A stretch of 64,000 nt of DNA from Flavihumibacter fluminis (GTDB lineage Bacteria > Bacteroidota > Bacteroidia > Chitinophagales > Chitinophagaceae): positions 930,001-994,000 of the forward strand of contig NZ_JAKEVY010000002.1 of the NCBI RefSeq assembly GCF_021491375.1, given 5' to 3'. Shown piece after piece: positions 1,654 to 63,458 of the stretch. Under the pieces are notes generated by a model. That model worked only from the letters and a program-made list of their open reading frames with translations, ran no database searches and was not told the DNA's origin. A program made the translations under genes and the position numbers. The first letter of the stretch is position 1; the number at the start of each line of letters is the position of its first letter.

Positions 1654-3696
1654 ATGAGTAAAAAGAAATCTTCTTCAAAGAAAAATAAGGCAAAAGGTAC
1701 TGGTCCTGAGTTGCCGGTAGGCAGACTTGATATAACCCGAAGTGGAATGGGATTTGTGATCATAGAGGGACTGGAACAGGATATACTGGTAAAGCCGAAT
1801 GATTTCAATACCGCCTTACATGGAGATAAAGTAAAAGTGCAGGTGATGCGTTCCTCCGGAAGAGGTGGTGGACGCCTGCAGGGAATGATTACAGAAGTGG
1901 TAGAGCGCAAGCAGCAATCCTTCCTGGGTAAGATAGAGCTAAGTAAAAGTTTTGCCTTTTTCATTCCGGAAACAGACAAACCCATGCCGGATATTTATAT
2001 CCCGCTGGATAAACTGCATGGGGCTGAGAATGGCGCGCGGGCAGTAGTGAAAATTGTGGAATGGTCGAACAACAAGAAGCCGGTAGGGGAAGTGATGGAA
2101 GTACTGAAAGAAGAGGCTGCGAATGATACGGCGATGAAAGAAATCCTGCTGGAGAATGGATTTCCACTTTCATTCCCGGAGGATGTGCTGGAGGAAACAG
2201 CCCGCATACCGGAAACACTGGATGCAAAGGAGATTGCAAAGCGCAAGGATATGCGGGAGGTGCTGACCTTTACGATAGATCCTATGGATGCGAAGGATTT
2301 TGATGATGCCTTATCGATACAATCGGTGAAAGGAGGATATGAGATCGGGGTGCATATCGCGGATGTGAGTTATTATGTAGAGCCCGAGACCGAGCTGGAT
2401 AAGGAAGCTTATCTGCGCGCAACTTCGGTGTATTTACCTGACCGGGTGAATCCCATGTTGCCGGAAAAGATATCCAATGAACTCTGTTCCCTGCGGCCGC
2501 ATGAAGACAAGTTCACGTTCTCGGCAGTATTCCTGATCAATGCAAGAGGAGATGTAAAGGAGAGTTGGCTTGGCAGAACTGTGACCCATTCGGATCATCG
2601 GTTTACCTATGAAGAGGTGCAGGAGATCATCGAGAATGAAGATGGGTTGTACAAAGAGGAAATACTGCTGCTGAATAAATTTGCGCAGCGCATGCGCAAA
2701 CAGCGTTTTAAAAAAGGCGCGATCAATTTCTCCTCCCAGGAAGTTCGCTTCAAGCTGGATGAGAACCGCAAGCCAATAGGCATCATGATTAAGGAGAGCA
2801 AGGAAGCGCATCAGTTGATCGAAGAGTTTATGTTGCTGGCAAACCGGACCGTGGCAGAATTCATCAGCAAGATAGAAGTCAATAAAAAGACATTGCCCTT
2901 TCCATACCGGGTGCATGATCAGCCGGATGAGGAAAAGCTTACACCCTTTGCAGCATTTGCCCTCAAATTCGGACATACGTTTCATACCAAATCACCGGAG
3001 CAGATTGCAGCATCCTTTAACCAGTTGTTACAGGATGTGCAGGGCAAGCCCGAGCAGCATGTGCTGGAGCAGTTAGGCATCCGTACCATGGCGAAAGCGG
3101 TATATACGACCAAGAATATAGGGCATTATGGATTGGGATTTGAGCATTATGCACACTTCACTTCTCCTATTCGCCGCTACCCGGATGTATTGGTGCATCG
3201 CGTGCTGCAGCAGGTGCTGGATGAACAATACCTGCCAGACAAGAAGATGGAAGAAAAGTGTAAACACTGCAGTGAACGCGAGCGGGCAGCAATGGATTCA
3301 GAAAGAGCTTCCAACAAATACAAACAGGTGGAATACCTGATGAATTTTCTCGGGGATGAATTTGACGGCGTGATCAGCGGGGTATCTTCCTTTGGATTCT
3401 GGGTGGAAACGGTTGAGCATAAATGTGAGGGATTGGTAAGTATTACAAGCTTATCTGAATATGATGATTTCCGGCATGTGGAGTCGGATTATATGCTGGC
3501 CGGCAGAAGATCGGGGCGGACCTTTCGAATGGGGGATAAAGTGAGGATCAGGGTGGTGGCAGCCAACCTGGAAAAGCGCCAGCTGGATTACGAGTGGGTA
3601 ATCGCAACCGCCATGAAAGAAGAAACCGGGGATGCGAGAGCAAGAAAAGCGGCAGCTAAAAAAGCAGGAAATAAAAAACACGGAAAGAAAAAATAA
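1654..3696 (+). CDS. rnr: ribonuclease R
   Basis: This is a 3'-5' exoribonuclease of the RNB/RNase II superfamily, which degrades structured RNA in the cytoplasm. A lysine/serine-rich start is followed by cold-shock-like OB domains (about residues 20-150). The RNB catalytic domain begins near residue 205, and its metal-binding acidic motif DPMDAKDFDDA lies at 209-219. A C-terminal S1 domain is at about 585-660, followed by a very basic tail rich in Lys/Ala. At 680 residues it is somewhat shorter than the roughly 800-residue E. coli enzyme. It starts 10 bases after lpxK and its 3' end overlaps the possible ATG of the next gene, so the four genes look co-transcribed. Confidence 0.95.
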   Translation: MSKKKSSSKKNKAKGTGPELPVGRLDITRSGMGFVIIEGLEQDILVKPNDFNTALHGDKVKVQVMRSSGRGGGRLQGMITEVVERKQQSFLGKIELSKSFAFFIPETDKPMPDIYIPLDKLHGAENGARAVVKIVEWSNNKKPVGEVMEVLKEEAANDTAMKEILLENGFPLSFPEDVLEETARIPETLDAKEIAKRKDMREVLTFTIDPMDAKDFDDALSIQSVKGGYEIGVHIADVSYYVEPETELDKEAYLRATSVYLPDRVNPMLPEKISNELCSLRPHEDKFTFSAVFLINARGDVKESWLGRTVTHSDHRFTYEEVQEIIENEDGLYKEEILLLNKFAQRMRKQRFKKGAINFSSQEVRFKLDENRKPIGIMIKESKEAHQLIEEFMLLANRTVAEFISKIEVNKKTLPFPYRVHDQPDEEKLTPFAAFALKFGHTFHTKSPEQIAASFNQLLQDVQGKPEQHVLEQLGIRTMAKAVYTTKNIGHYGLGFEHYAHFTSPIRRYPDVLVHRVLQQVLDEQYLPDKKMEEKCKHCSERERAAMDSERASNKYKQVEYLMNFLGDEFDGVISGVSSFGFWVETVEHKCEGLVSITSLSEYDDFRHVESDYMLAGRRSGRTFRMGDKVRIRVVAANLEKRQLDYEWVIATAMKEETGDARARKAAAKKAGNKKHGKKK

Positions 3697-4612
3697 GACA
3701 TTGGAAGAATCCATCAGTATAAATAAGTTCATCAGTGATACCGGTTATTGCTCCAGAAGAGAGGCCGATGACCTGATTGTAGCAGGAAGAGTGTTGTTGA
3801 ATGGTCGTAAGGCCAAACCAGGAAACCGGGTAAAGCCAGGCGATGAAGTAGAAGTGGATGGCAGTTTGATTACACGCAAGCAAAAAGAGAAACCGGTATA
3901 TATCCTGCTCAATAAACCGGTAGGCATAACTACTACCACGGAAGAACATGTGGCGGGTAATATTATTTCCTTTCTGAATTATCCCAAACGAGTGTTTCCC
4001 ATAGGCAGGCTGGATAAGGATTCAGAGGGACTTATCCTGCTTACCAATGATGGCGATATTGTAAACAAAGTGTTGCGGGCAGGAAATGCTCACGAGAAAG
4101 AATACCAGGTGAGGGTGAATAAGCCTATTGGTCCCGGTTTTGTAGACCAGATGGAAAAAGGCATACCTATACTGGATACAGTAACACTACCCTGTAAGGT
4201 TCGGGTAACAGGTAAGCAGCAATTTACAATCATACTAACGCAGGGGCTTAACCGACAAATCCGGCGTATGTGTGAATACCTCGGGTATGAGGTAACAGCG
4301 CTGAGAAGGGTACGATTCATGCACCTGACAATTGGCAACCTGGCTATAGGAAAATGGCGGATGCTGAGTCCGGTTGAACTGGAGAAATTGAATGCGGCCA
4401 TTGAAGATTCTTCCGGACTACCGGTGAAGATTAAACGAATCAAACCGGAGAGGGCTCCAAAAATTAAAAAGGCGCCTAAAGAAGCACCTGTAGAAAAGGA
4501 AACTGTTAAGGCTAAGGCAAGGCCAGCAGCCAAACCAGTTGGCAAAATGGAAAAAGAGCCCGCAAAGAAGGGCTCTTATAAAGCGTTTCGGCAGAAAGGT
4601 CGCCAGCGCTAA
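3632..4612 (+). CDS. RluF/RluB-type rRNA pseudouridine synthase
   Basis: This protein isomerises a uridine of 23S rRNA to pseudouridine. An S4 RNA-binding domain (about residues 29-75, core SRREADDLIVAGRVLLNG) precedes the RsuA/RluB catalytic domain. The catalytic Asp is residue 128 in GRLDKDSEGLILLTND, and the motif GLNRQIRRMCEYLGYEV further on is closest to RluF, so U2604 is the likely target. A basic low-complexity tail of about 65 residues follows. The ATG at 3632 lies 65 bases inside rnr and adds 23 basic residues of doubtful value. A TTG at 3701, just before the S4 domain, is an equally good start. The last 60 bases also encode a terminator for the opposite strand. Confidence 0.88.
   Translation: MREQEKRQLKKQEIKNTERKNKTLEESISINKFISDTGYCSRREADDLIVAGRVLLNGRKAKPGNRVKPGDEVEVDGSLITRKQKEKPVYILLNKPVGITTTTEEHVAGNIISFLNYPKRVFPIGRLDKDSEGLILLTNDGDIVNKVLRAGNAHEKEYQVRVNKPIGPGFVDQMEKGIPILDTVTLPCKVRVTGKQQFTIILTQGLNRQIRRMCEYLGYEVTALRRVRFMHLTIGNLAIGKWRMLSPVELEKLNAAIEDSSGLPVKIKRIKPERAPKIKKAPKEAPVEKETVKAKARPAAKPVGKMEKEPAKKGSYKAFRQKGRQR
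4554..4577 (-). terminator. intrinsic terminator for the DUF2207 gene, inside the rluF-like 3' end
   Basis: Read on the - strand, AAGAGCCC, an 8-base loop and GGGCTCTT form a perfect 8-bp stem that runs into a T-rich stretch (CTCTTTTTCC). It lies about 50 bases past the stop of the - strand DUF2207 gene. It falls within the coding sequence of the convergent pseudouridine synthase, so the same bases serve both roles. Function is inferred from structure. Confidence 0.7.
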
Positions 4613-59398: not shown

Positions 59399-60178
59399 AT
59401 GAAAGTACTCATTGTTGAAGATGAAGAACTGGCAGTAAAGAAACTGCAGAAGACCCTGCAATCTGTGACATCCGACGCGGAAGTGGTAGGTATTACAGAT
59501 AGCATCCGGTCTTCAGTTAAATGGTTGCAGGAAAATCCCACGCCGGATCTGATCCTGATGGACATAGAACTGGCAGATGGACAGAGTTTTGAAATCTTCG
59601 ATAAGGTTGAGGTGAATACCACGGTAATTTTCACCACTTCCTATGATGAGTATGCGCTGAAAGCATTTAAGGTAAACAGCGTGGATTACCTGCTCAAACC
59701 GGTTCAGAAAGAAGACCTGGAAGCAGCCCTGGACAAATTTCACCGGATGAAAAAAATGCTGCTGGGTGCTGAGCCTTCGGGCAACCTGAACATGGATAGC
59801 CTGGTAAAAGAATTACAGCAGCGATTACAACCCAAAGAGTTTCGGAAACGCTTCCTGGTGAAACAGGGACAAAAACTCGTAAGTGTGGAAGTGGATGAAA
59901 TCGCCTATTTCTATAGTGATGGGCGCGTTAATTTTTTCAAGACCAAGGACAACAGAAAGTTCATCGTAGATTATACCATGGATGAGCTGGAAGCCATGCT
60001 CGACCCTGACCGGTATTTCCGGATCAGTCGCTCATTTTATGTCTCCATCGAAAGCGTGGATCAGATCCATGATTATTTTGGCAATCGCCTGCTCTTGCAT
60101 CTTCAGCCCGTGGTTGATAAAGAGGCCATTGTCAGCCGGGAGAAGGTAACCGACTTCAAACGTTGGATGGGGAAGTAA
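59399..60178 (+). CDS. LytTR-family response regulator
   Basis: This 259-residue protein starts at ATG 59399. An in-frame TTG 18 bases earlier is not needed. The receiver domain has the acidic pocket VEDEE, the phospho-accepting Asp55 in LILMDIELADG, Thr and Lys at the expected places (VIFTTSYDEYALKAF; DYLLKPVQ), and a linker. The C-terminal LytTR DNA-binding domain (about 155-255) shows VKQGQKLVSVEVDEIAYFYS and RYFRISRSFYVSIESV. TAATTTTG at 59376-59383 matches the -7 consensus. It should be phosphorylated by the LytS-like kinase just upstream. The gene ends in the intergenic repeat shared with the rnpB region. Confidence 0.93.
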   Translation: MKVLIVEDEELAVKKLQKTLQSVTSDAEVVGITDSIRSSVKWLQENPTPDLILMDIELADGQSFEIFDKVEVNTTVIFTTSYDEYALKAFKVNSVDYLLKPVQKEDLEAALDKFHRMKKMLLGAEPSGNLNMDSLVKELQQRLQPKEFRKRFLVKQGQKLVSVEVDEIAYFYSDGRVNFFKTKDNRKFIVDYTMDELEAMLDPDRYFRISRSFYVSIESVDQIHDYFGNRLLLHLQPVVDKEAIVSREKVTDFKRWMGK

Positions 60179-60354: not shown

Positions 60355-60382
60355 ACGTCTCACGTCTGACGTCTGACATTTC
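60355..60382. repeat. ACGTCTS heptad repeat
   Basis: ACGTCTC, ACGTCTG, ACGTCTG and ACATTTC run at 60355-60382, reading into the stop codon of the - strand sensor gene. On the - strand this is CAGACGT/GAGACGT, the same family as the GTGAGAY heptads at 46161-46188. Confidence 0.7.
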
Positions 60383-62048
60383 ACGTTTTCAACTTCATCT
60401 CCAGTCTCACCAGGGTTCCCGTATTTTTTTCAGATAAAATTTCAAGGTTGGCATTGATGGCGGCAGCGCGACGTTTCATGTCGAGGATACCGCGGCCTTT
60501 GGCTACACCGGATGTATTAAAGCCCTTGCCATCATCCTGGATCAGTAGTTGCAGTTTCTGTTTGCGGAGACGCAGTTGTACCTGGATATTACGCGCACCG
60601 GAATGTTTCACTGCATTGGTGATCGCTTCCTTATAGATGGAGAGCAGTTCATAACGGTGTTCCATATCCGAATGTTTGTCCTCGATATGCGGGTCGGCTT
60701 CAATCTGAATATTGACATCATTAAAGGATTCCTGCTCAAGTGCAAATTGTTTCATCCGCTCCAGGGTTTTCACCATCTGATCATTCTGTGGATTGATGCT
60801 CCAAACCATATCATACATGGCCTGTGTCATACGGTTGCTGGTTTCACTGATCTGGTGGATATAATCCCGCGTACGCTCACGGTCCTGTTCAATTTTATTT
60901 TTTGCGAGTTCACTAGAAATATTAATGCTGCTCAGTGAATTGGTCAGGTCTTCTGTTAAACTGGTGGCAATCCGGGTCCGTATACTTTCTGTTGCCCGGA
61001 TCTTTTGCATCCGAAGGCGATCGAGCCAGTATAGAAAAGCCAGCAGAAGAAAGACCATCATCGCCATAAACCAATAGGAACGCCAGAAAGGAGGGCGCAC
61101 CTGGATAATCAGACGGGTAACGGCTTCCGATTCCTCACCATCACCATTAACCGCTTTTACGAGGAAGGTATAATTGCGATAGGGCAGGTAGTTATAAATA
61201 GCCTGATTTCGGGTGGAACGAACCCAGTATTCATCGAGTCCCTCCAGTTTATGATAATACGTAAGTTGTCCGTGTTCCAGGTATTGAAGCGAAGCATAAT
61301 CGATGGTGATAGAATTGTTTCTATGATTTAATTCCATGCGTCCTTCCCGCATGATTGAATCGTAATTCATTCTTTTGTTCAGTACTTTCAAATCAGTAAT
61401 GGTTACCTGTGGCGGGCGGGTGGAATGCATTACCATTTCGGGATCAAACACCAGGAAATTGTGACTGGTAGTAAAAGCAAGCAGGGAGTCACCGATACGA
61501 TAAGCACCACCTGAAGTGAAATTATCAAACTGAATTCCATCCCGGCGATCAAAGACCGTAAAGGAGTTCTGAGAAAGATTCCAGCGGCACAAACCATCCT
61601 GCAAACCTATCCATACACGGCCTCTTCTGTCAATTTGCAGGTAGGATGCGGAATTGGAAGGAAGTCCGTCATCTGCAGAAATAATCCGGTGGGTCATACT
61701 GCGCGTATTCAGTACCGTTAGATTGGCAGTAGCCAGCAGCAACAGGCTGTCATTATACCGGATGATATCGGTTGGGGAATCATTCCCTGTTTTCCAACCG
61801 CTTTCAGAAGAGCGTGTAATATGATGGAGGATAACCCCGGTAACCGGATCAATATGATAGGTGCCCCAGCCAAGCGTGCCGACCCATAAACTGCCATCCC
61901 AATCTATATACAGTTTATGTACCAGTCCGATTTCATGGATGAGTTCATATGCTTTAGTGGGATCTCCGCCTGATTTTTTAAAATCCCATTTGATCAGACG
62001 TCCGCCCTGGGTACCAAACCAGATATTTCCTTCCCGGTCTTCCACCAT
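60381..62048 (-). CDS. C-terminal half of a split Reg_prop/Y_Y_Y sensor, HisKA_3-like, His lost
   Basis: This 555-residue frame starts VEDREGNIWFGTQGGRLIKW, a Reg_prop propeller blade, so it cannot be a natural N-terminus. Further blades follow, then a Y_Y_Y domain (about 225-310), one membrane helix (about 325-345), a HisKA_3-like dimerisation helix and a HATPase_c domain with NAVKHSGARNIQVQ and DDGKGFNTSG. In kinases of this group the helix reads like ARDLHDDIG; here the sequence is ATSLTEDLT, so residue 365 is Thr (ACA, 60954-60956) and the acceptor His is absent. The frame is in phase with the upstream half, interrupted only by a TAA at 62064-62066. It probably belonged to one roughly 1025-residue protein and is unlikely to signal as a normal kinase. 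Confidence 0.85.
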   Translation of the reverse strand: MVEDREGNIWFGTQGGRLIKWDFKKSGGDPTKAYELIHEIGLVHKLYIDWDGSLWVGTLGWGTYHIDPVTGVILHHITRSSESGWKTGNDSPTDIIRYNDSLLLLATANLTVLNTRSMTHRIISADDGLPSNSASYLQIDRRGRVWIGLQDGLCRWNLSQNSFTVFDRRDGIQFDNFTSGGAYRIGDSLLAFTTSHNFLVFDPEMVMHSTRPPQVTITDLKVLNKRMNYDSIMREGRMELNHRNNSITIDYASLQYLEHGQLTYYHKLEGLDEYWVRSTRNQAIYNYLPYRNYTFLVKAVNGDGEESEAVTRLIIQVRPPFWRSYWFMAMMVFLLLAFLYWLDRLRMQKIRATESIRTRIATSLTEDLTNSLSSINISSELAKNKIEQDRERTRDYIHQISETSNRMTQAMYDMVWSINPQNDQMVKTLERMKQFALEQESFNDVNIQIEADPHIEDKHSDMEHRYELLSIYKEAITNAVKHSGARNIQVQLRLRKQKLQLLIQDDGKGFNTSGVAKGRGILDMKRRAAAINANLEILSEKNTGTLVRLEMKLKT

Positions 62049-62063
62049 TTGCCGGATGGTTCG

Positions 62064-63458
62064 TTATTTGAAAATGGAGGGTTGGTCGTTGCGTACGGTA
62101 CCAGTTTTGGGATTGTAGATCTTTAGAAATCCGGTTTGTTCACCTAGAAAAATCAGCCCTGTTTTACTGTGTTCCAGGATACTCCAGATGGTCATTGTAT
62201 TCTTCCAGGGATTGAATGCAGCCGGTAGTTCCAGTGGCCTGAATTGCTTATCATAGAGATATAATCCTGCTCCCCAGGTGGCTACCAGGATCTGGCCATT
62301 TTTTAATTGCTGAACATGCTCAACCGGACCGTCCTGCACATTTTTTTCTCCCGGCCTAACCAGGTAATAAGCATTAAATGCCTGGGCTGTTGGATTGAAT
62401 AAAAACAGGCCGTCTGTTGTTGCCAGCCAAAGATTTTCTTGTCGGTCTTCATATGCTTGCAGACCTACATCAAACCGAAATTTTTCTGTGTAGGGGGCAG
62501 TCTGATGTACAAACTGAAATCGTTGGTGTAAGGTATCGAACTCAGCAATAAAGGGCAGCCCATACACCCAGATCGTTCCGTTTTTTTGTTGGGACATACC
62601 TCTGAATTCATGATAGACTCTTGGAATGTAAGGTCCAATATAATGGCGAGTCTTTTTGCCCGTATTGCCATCGTACCAATAGAAATAAGGAACAGGATGT
62701 CGATAAGGCCAGTGAAACAGTGCCAGGCTTTTACTATTGTGAATGGGTTCAATTCCCTGGATATTATGTATACCTGCAAAGCTGTCGATGATTGGGTCCC
62801 TGGACCGGTTGTTCCCGGGATAGGAGAGTCTTTTCAGATCCGGTTCGTATTTGACCAACCCCGAGTCGCATCCCAGCCAGAGCACTTTACGATTGGCATC
62901 CGGTTGAAAATAGAGAACGGTCCAGTTTGCAGGAAGCGTTACCTCCCTGCTGATTGGCAGGAAGCGCTGTTGGCTTTCATCCAGGCGGAATACGCCTCTT
63001 CCAATCATCAGCAGGTAGAGGGTTCCTTTCCAGTCCTCTTTAAAGATAGAGGTATGAAAAATATTCAGTGATCTCGGAGGCATTTCAGCTTCTACATCCT
63101 TATAAGTGAAGCGTTCATTGTCAAACAGCCCAATTTGGTTTTCTTCATTAATAATCCACACCCTGCCTTTTGAATCGCAGAACATAGTAGCCAGGTTATT
63201 GGAAGGTATGCTGTTGGGCTGATTTGGATGGTGTTTGAAGGTGATAAATTCCCTGCCATCAAATCGCTGCAACCCATTGGTAGTGGCCAGCCAGATATAT
63301 CCTTTTTTATCCTGGCCAACTGCATTCACATGATTGGATACAAGTCCGTTTGCCGTACTGTATTGTGTAAAAGAATACTGTCTGGCCTGTTGTGCCAGCA
63401 GGGATGCTGTGCATCCTGCAAAAAAAAGCAGTACTGAAAGGAGGGATTGCTTCAACAT
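62064..63458 (-). CDS. N-terminal half of the split Reg_prop sensor
   Basis: This frame starts at ATG 63458 with a signal peptide (SVLLFFAGCTASLLAQ), preceded by a TATATTTG promoter element. A longer frame to 63614 begins upstream of that promoter and is rejected. The mature part is a beta-propeller of Reg_prop repeats, with blades such as VGQDKKGYIWLATTNGLQRF, FCDSKGRVWIINEENQ and RQENLWLATTDGLFLF. The frame stops at TAA 62064-62066 in the middle of the propeller (after QPSIFK). The following codons continue the blade in the same frame (RTIRQMVEDREGNIWFG), so the stop is a single-codon interruption. If translated only to the stop, the product is a secreted partial propeller of about 464 residues. 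Confidence 0.85.
   Translation of the reverse strand: MLKQSLLSVLLFFAGCTASLLAQQARQYSFTQYSTANGLVSNHVNAVGQDKKGYIWLATTNGLQRFDGREFITFKHHPNQPNSIPSNNLATMFCDSKGRVWIINEENQIGLFDNERFTYKDVEAEMPPRSLNIFHTSIFKEDWKGTLYLLMIGRGVFRLDESQQRFLPISREVTLPANWTVLYFQPDANRKVLWLGCDSGLVKYEPDLKRLSYPGNNRSRDPIIDSFAGIHNIQGIEPIHNSKSLALFHWPYRHPVPYFYWYDGNTGKKTRHYIGPYIPRVYHEFRGMSQQKNGTIWVYGLPFIAEFDTLHQRFQFVHQTAPYTEKFRFDVGLQAYEDRQENLWLATTDGLFLFNPTAQAFNAYYLVRPGEKNVQDGPVEHVQQLKNGQILVATWGAGLYLYDKQFRPLELPAAFNPWKNTMTIWSILEHSKTGLIFLGEQTGFLKIYNPKTGTVRNDQPSIFK

Follow-up and report, generated by a model that had tools for sequence, protein, structure and literature searches.

Pseudo-histidine kinases are already known. DivL of Caulobacter carries a Tyr in place of the acceptor His, which is replaced by a non-His residue across its orthologues, keeps the H, N, G1, F and G2 boxes, and is described as signaling without kinase activity (PMC4211667). 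It indicates that replacement of the acceptor with the boxes kept can be a stable functional state. The same report describes weak binding of an ATP analogue by DivL, so retained boxes are no proof of good ATP binding (PMC4211667). RocA is described as an accessory pseudokinase that acts through CovS (PMC7028121), and pseudokinase heterodimers are described for ChrS (PMC9491836). The RocA and ChrS cases indicate that an active kinase can be directed by a pseudokinase. The subject of this study is a sensor gene on the minus strand of a 64,000 nucleotide stretch of Flavihumibacter fluminis DNA (NCBI RefSeq assembly GCF_021491375.1, contig NZ_JAKEVY010000002.1, positions 930,001 to 994,000), which is referred to as the window. 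The gene encodes a Reg_prop/Y_Y_Y sensor in which a Thr occupies the position of the acceptor His, and it is split by an in-frame TAA. From sequence comparisons we consider it somewhat probable that the Thr sensor is a DivL/RocA-like pseudo-histidine kinase that serves as the receptor, or sensing subunit, of the adjacent LytS-LytTR pair.

Like DivL, the Thr sensor has an acceptor that is replaced across orthologues and retains its ATP boxes. DivL differs in having PAS sensors, a Tyr, and DivK as its partner, with CckA as a further partner, whereas the Thr sensor has a Reg_prop/Y_Y_Y propeller, a Thr, a HisKA_3-like module and a linked LytS-LytTR pair. RocA, as described, is a kinase-like membrane protein working through a second, real kinase, which is the role proposed here for the Thr sensor. 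It differs in that a dispensable His is kept, the ATP domain lacks several key residues, and the sensory part consists of six membrane segments with no propeller. The closest relatives are the canonical Chitinophagaceae Reg_prop/Y_Y_Y HisKA_3 sensors (class 1 below), which have a similar length (about 1030 amino acids) and the same order of parts. These differ from the Thr sensor in having His-Asp-Asp and a LuxR-like regulator on the 3′ side, and no LytTR was found beside them in the stretches searched. Hybrid two-component systems of Bacteroides join Reg_prop/Y_Y_Y, kinase, receiver and AraC parts in one chain and keep the His. They have the same kind of periplasmic sensor as the Thr sensor, but their own receiver and DNA-binding domain. 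Two open frames of the window genome, 1373 and 1379 amino acids long, have Reg_prop similarity and a SHEFRTP acceptor motif and resemble the Bacteroides hybrids.

The minus-strand frame from 63458 to 60378 translates as a single reading frame with one internal stop. The TAA is followed by RTIRQ and then by MVEDREG, and without it the intact sensor would comprise ∼1025 codons in the order Reg_prop, Y_Y_Y, HisKA_3, HATPase. A Pfam scan of both pieces placed Reg_prop repeats on both sides of the TAA; the propeller repeats are followed by Y_Y_Y and then by a membrane helix, which is the Reg_prop/Y_Y_Y sensor architecture. Y_Y_Y and HATPase_c exceed the Pfam cut-offs, and the HisKA_3 match falls just below its own (23.5 bits, cut-off 24). 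DesK chains were matched by an alignment profile at about 3e-12. The N-terminal piece aligns nearly full-length with seven orthologues at identities from 97% to 44%. The original prediction, made from the letters of the window, held that a single TAA splits a protein of about 1025 residues, and both the translation and eight open orthologues bear this out.

It also held that Thr365 of the second open reading frame (ORF) stands in place of the acceptor His, which the alignments confirmed. The positions it gave for the TAA (62064-62066) and for the ACA codon of the Thr (60954-60956) are correct. In a profile alignment the Thr falls in the phospho-acceptor column, where DesK chains have His-Asp (one mutant entry has Glu-Asp) and 45/45 canonical paralogues have His. 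A His in helix 2 of the sensor (YIHQ/YIHH) stands outside the acceptor position and does not overturn the loss.

The family sample came from a profile search of 294 Chitinophagaceae genomes, with the best 4 candidates per genome scored at E ≤ 1e-90, plus the genus search. The 124 genes with a profile score of at least 300 were taken as family members. Genes with a His, the N-box Asn and the G1 box were assigned to class 1, those with a non-His residue and both boxes to class 2, and the rest, 45 by the rule and 9 left open by it, to class 3. Class 1, the canonical sensors, comprises 45 genes, all with His followed by Asp-Asp. Class 2 comprises 25 genes from 24 genomes and 9 Chitinophagaceae genera, the window included, and the acceptor residue is Thr in every one. 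Class 3 comprises 54 genes; the acceptor His is present in 50/54 and the ATP boxes are eroded (e.g. L171:242-3313, L166:3460-6522). Box retention in classes 1 and 2 follows in part from the class rule, which includes N and G1, and no Thr gene failed the rule. What the rule does not impose is that the ATP boxes are kept in all 25 Thr genes and in none of the other four non-His genes, of which two have Ala, one Tyr and one Gln.

The N-box Asn, G1 Asp, Gly, Gly, Phe and G2 Gly columns are conserved in 25/25 Thr genes. The G2 box has Arg in 25/25 class 2 genes and Asn in 44/45 class 1 genes. Measured against DesK/NarX-type HisKA_3 kinases, the N, G1 and G2 boxes are present and the acceptor His of DHp helix 1 is Thr in all 25. 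A non-His acceptor conserved among orthologues, with the ATP boxes kept, is the pattern of a DivL-like pseudo-histidine kinase. All four Thr codons are in use among the 25 genes (11, 6, 6 and 2), so the Thr itself seems to be selected for. The residue after the Thr is acidic in 21/25 genes and Lys or Arg in 4/25. Distribution was checked in the top-scoring loci of two wider samples, 348 genomes of the order and 345 of the phylum, which overlap in part. Among the 56 loci read, 5 have Thr, all in the window's family, and 51 have His, so that no Thr was found outside the family among these best-scoring loci.

The kinase-module tree was a quick tree built with the acceptor column masked. Each class forms one side of one branch, with Shimodaira-Hasegawa-like approximate likelihood ratio (SH-aLRT) support of 100 for class 1, 99 for class 3 and 87 for class 2; the class 3 branches are long and the order among them is unreliable. 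The sensor-part tree again has class 1 on one side of a branch (99), and the Thr genes are scattered inside classes 2 and 3, with at least 6 changes (8 on an 84-row subset). A single Thr clade was rejected for the sensor parts (log-likelihood difference 1044, approximately unbiased test p 4e-10). The LytTR and LytS tree sets were gathered with the window's proteins as queries, and distant rows were dropped (L240 from the LytTR tree, L240-L242 from the LytS tree). Thr-linked LytTR proteins form one clade (23/68 rows, support 99/93), as do Thr-linked LytS proteins (21/106 rows, SH-aLRT 95, quick tree). Since the module, LytS and LytTR each form one clade and the sensor parts do not, the module and the LytS-LytTR pair apparently make up one inherited unit, onto which sensors would have been swapped. 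This shared history gives the strongest reason to think that the Thr module and LytS-LytTR act together.

Sensor and regulator also occur together. Within the genus, a LytTR protein 83-100% identical to that of the window is present in 9/9 genomes with the Thr sensor and in 0/6 genomes without it, two of the six being only 55% and 75% complete. In G002, which has a class-3-like sensor, the LytTR is at 75% identity. Across the family, a LytTR match at E ≤ 1e-110 was obtained in 62/288 genomes searched, including 56/56 counted genomes with a class 2 or class 3 sensor. The sensor genomes were listed by hand; two class 3 genomes, G298 and G302, stand outside the count, each with a LytTR in its retrieved locus. 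Among the other six LytTR genomes, G212 (with broken frames) and G249 carry a class 3 gene on inspection, G141 is 75% complete with its match at a contig end, and no class 2 or class 3 sensor was found in G068, G135 and G187. The Fisher value for co-occurrence was 3e-53, which assumes the same 288 genomes in both searches and independent genomes, neither being strictly true.

LytTR lies tail to tail with the sensor within 1.5 kb in 23/25 class 2 genes, with LytS behind LytTR. The exceptions are L030 (G003), with LytTR ∼11 kb away on the same contig, and L097, in tandem with the linked copy L123. L123 (G204:C30), with L097 as its upstream part, holds tandem Thr sensors whose propellers fall in different branches, with one LytS-LytTR pair beside them; this tandem is possibly an intermediate of sensor swapping. 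The stretches around the 45 class 1 genes gave neither a LytTR nor a LytS match at E ≤ 1e-8; 36/45 of these stretches include at least 3 kb of the 3′ side. Within 2 kb on the 3′ side, 36/45 class 1 genes have a co-directional frame that carries a LuxR-like motif; in 2 such a frame lies elsewhere or in another orientation, and a simple pattern did not find one in 7/45. Class 3 has a convergent LytTR within 1.5 kb in 26/54 and elsewhere in the fetched stretch in 5/54; LytTR was not found in the covered stretch for 23/54, several of them near contig or stretch ends.

LytS copies were counted in linked loci with at least 3.5 kb of 3′ flank. Linked class 2 loci have one LytS in 13/14, the fourteenth (L027) being a single gene interrupted by a stretch of N, and linked class 3 loci have two in 21/21. 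One of the tandem class 3 LytS copies (L132, L133, L134, L149, L164, L166 and others) has an intact N-box, ENAVKHN or ENVVKHN, and the other has a degraded N-box with the His kept. The degraded copies represent a single change on the LytS tree. In G212 (L226:6733-13138) the class 3 sensor and LytS appear as several broken frames, a possible further loss or assembly error.

The TAA has a different distribution from the Thr. The seven aligned orthologous loci, six labelled Flavihumibacter and one a metagenome-assembled genome labelled Flavipsychrobacter, each have one open frame of 1028-1094 codons across the TAA site. The genus search found the sensor gene in 9/15 genomes, the window's included, at E ≤ 1e-100. 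Same-genus orthologues are uninterrupted in 8/8 cases, seven apparently from the same genomes as the aligned loci and the eighth from G005, and the only interrupted copy is that of the window. The orthologues have a sense codon at the site, without conservation of the encoded residue. With an in-frame stop that is absent from its orthologues, the window copy has the mark of a pseudogene. The ratio of non-synonymous to synonymous substitution rates (dN/dS) between the window and its nearest relative, L024, was 0.048 for the whole gene, 0.034 past the stop, 0.015 for the kinase module, 0.020 for LytTR and 0.040 for LytS. With L025 as outgroup, 67 synonymous and 12 non-synonymous changes fell on the window branch vs. 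79 and 22 on the L024 branch. The window branch shows no relaxed selection, and the counts point to purifying selection on the part past the stop until recently. Since the stop is also confined to the window, by these comparisons the TAA is either a null allele of very recent origin or an error of the assembly.

As a control for internal stops, ORFs of the sister genome G001 were matched to the window, and among the 46 with a match at ≥75%, 4/46 were flagged as broken or short. Besides the sensor gene, these were an ORF truncated at the edge of the window, one whose stop precedes the real start, and one read as a spurious antisense ORF. The split sensor is the only clear internal-stop case in the window. 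In the reverse direction 3/46 window ORFs were flagged against G001; for two of them the stop lies within the matching part of G001, so internal stops occur in the sister assembly too. At the window ORF 3632-4612 (326 amino acids), the sister-genome match holds one internal stop. Re-initiation at the ATG five codons past the TAA is possible and was not favored; this Met is Ile in 3/7 relatives, and the product would be without a signal peptide.

In the proposed arrangement the Thr sensor would be a periplasmic propeller receptor whose DHp/ATPase output module has long been without its acceptor His and has retained its ATP boxes. A ligand at the propeller/Y_Y_Y part would cause a conformational change in the ATP-bound Thr module, in which ATP would be a structural ligand. 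The module would touch LytS and set its balance of kinase and phosphatase activity, and LytS would phosphorylate LytTR. The window LytS has three closely spaced membrane helices, which by a simple scan are too tight for an extracytoplasmic sensor domain; with no room for such a domain, it is plausible that the receptor is a separate protein. The comparisons show the sequence features, conservation, constraint, linkage and co-occurrence, the clades shared by module, LytS and LytTR, and a different history for the sensor parts. From these we infer sensor swapping as the reason for that difference, physical contact, the direction of signaling, ATP binding and the lack of phosphotransfer by the sensor. 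In the window strain, if the TAA is real, the receptor would end before the membrane helix and leave LytS-LytTR without a receptor.

Several points weigh against this arrangement. The structure model of the module is too poor (mean predicted local distance difference test score 56.7) to serve as fold evidence. The sensor and LytS-LytTR are convergent and not in one operon, the pair in G003 is separated from its sensor by ∼11 kb, and some LytS-LytTR pairs have no sensor of this family within the stretch retrieved. The same data would also fit a DivL-like contact in which the partner is LytTR and not LytS. The Thr DHp helix would then bind the LytTR receiver, perhaps only when it is phosphorylated, and the sensor would modulate the regulator. 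DivL, with the same acceptor replacement and box retention, is described as binding DivK~P (PMC4211667), and the single clade of Thr-linked LytTR proteins is consistent with such a reader. However, the Thr-linked LytS proteins also form a single clade, and the number of linked LytS genes varies with sensor class (1 vs. 2), which points to LytS; we felt that a reader of LytTR was unlikely. We regard as very improbable a Thr autokinase, in which the GHKL ATP site would place a stable phosphate mark on the conserved Thr or, in trans, on a Thr/Ser. In its favor, the Thr is invariant in class 2 although Ala, Tyr and Gln replace the His in class 3, the ATP boxes are retained, and Ser/Thr phosphorylation is known for GHKL enzymes such as RsbW/SpoIIAB; the NCBIfam RsbW and SpoIIAB matches of the module were far under the cut-offs. 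The residue after the acceptor, which is acidic in canonical kinases, is the likely general base, so the Lys or Arg found there in four Thr genes makes a Thr kinase less likely. A broader scheme also seemed improbable, namely reciprocal half-kinase receptors (one with ATP boxes and Thr, the other with His and no ATP boxes) that have related LytS-LytTR outputs and propellers exchanged by recombination; in its boldest form the GHKL site would phosphorylate the Thr and the module would be a Thr kinase. Trans-phosphorylation between class 2 and class 3 was rejected as a general mechanism, since a class 3 gene was found in only 4/24 Thr-sensor genomes at the scores used (G006, G014, G097, G173) and in G097 and G173 each class lies beside its own LytTR.

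Decay of the gene, with the Thr and the stop as steps of one loss process, is hardly credible. The window copy does hold a nonsense codon, but the Thr is common to 9 genera, and both the dN/dS values and the branch counts speak for constraint. Judged by this distribution, with the ATP boxes kept and strong purifying selection, the Thr is older than the TAA and its appearance is not a decay step. The original prediction had proposed a comparison of orthologues and offered three options, and the comparison found the stop absent from 8/8 same-genus orthologues and the Thr in 25 genes. A young pseudogene that lost its His first was correct as to the order, but not in implying decay. A recoded stop finds no support and was rejected, since the orthologues have open frames with a sense codon and no conserved residue at the site. 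Of the three, the best fit is a non-phosphorylating sensor that acquired its stop recently. The neighboring LytS-LytTR partners and the reverse-defect class did not figure in the original prediction. An assembly or sequencing error at the TAA, with an intact gene in the strain, is quite possible, although we do not favor it; it is compatible with the pseudokinase reading and its odds are separate. The window branch is without relaxed constraint and the stop occurs in one assembly only, as expected of an error, but the site has no indel relative to the nearest relative and lies outside a homopolymer run, and the 46 matched ORFs gave no other clear internal stop in the window.

Among the papers listed in a literature search that covered neither subscription journals nor preprints, and as judged by those listings, none describes a Thr lineage spread over several genera together with a sister class of reverse defect and LytS-LytTR as its partner, and none links propellers of the Reg_prop or two-component regulator kind to both LytTR and a pseudokinase of this type. 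The family provides a built-in evolutionary comparison, in which canonical LuxR-like-linked sensors stand beside two half-defective output modules, both found with LytS-LytTR. With candidate partners named, it becomes directly testable whether LytS kinases that lack a sensor domain receive their signal from a distinct pseudokinase receptor. The window strain, if the stop is real, would be a natural receptor knock-out.

Table 1. Features of the split sensor gene and its convergent partners in the window.
Feature	Position	Strand	Evidence
N-terminal sensor piece, signal-peptide-like start and Reg_prop blades, 464 codons	62067..63458	-	Translation, Pfam
In-frame TAA, only in the window's genome	62064..62066	-	Sense codon in seven aligned orthologues, open frame in 8/8
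C-terminal sensor piece, remaining propeller, Y_Y_Y, membrane helix, DHp and HATPase, 555 codons from the first ATG past the TAA	60381..62048	-	Translation, Pfam
Membrane helix between Y_Y_Y and DHp, residues 326-344 past the stop	61032..61088	-	Hydropathy scan
Thr-type kinase module, DHp and ATP-binding domain	60381..61040	-	Module alignment, module tree, DesK match
Thr codon ACA (Thr365 of the second ORF), phospho-acceptor position	60954..60956	-	25 Thr genes among 124 family members
LytTR response regulator, convergent partner	59399..60178	+	Response_reg and LytTR domains; 9/9 Thr-sensor genomes of the genus
LytS-type histidine kinase (PF06580), three membrane helices	58263..59309	+	Pfam, simple helix scan

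The source assembly is 4.71 Mb in 41 contigs, with a completeness of 99.99. The G1 region of such kinases usually reads D-x-G. In the window LytS and its relatives it reads NNL or similar, and the ATP site of LytS is itself unusual.

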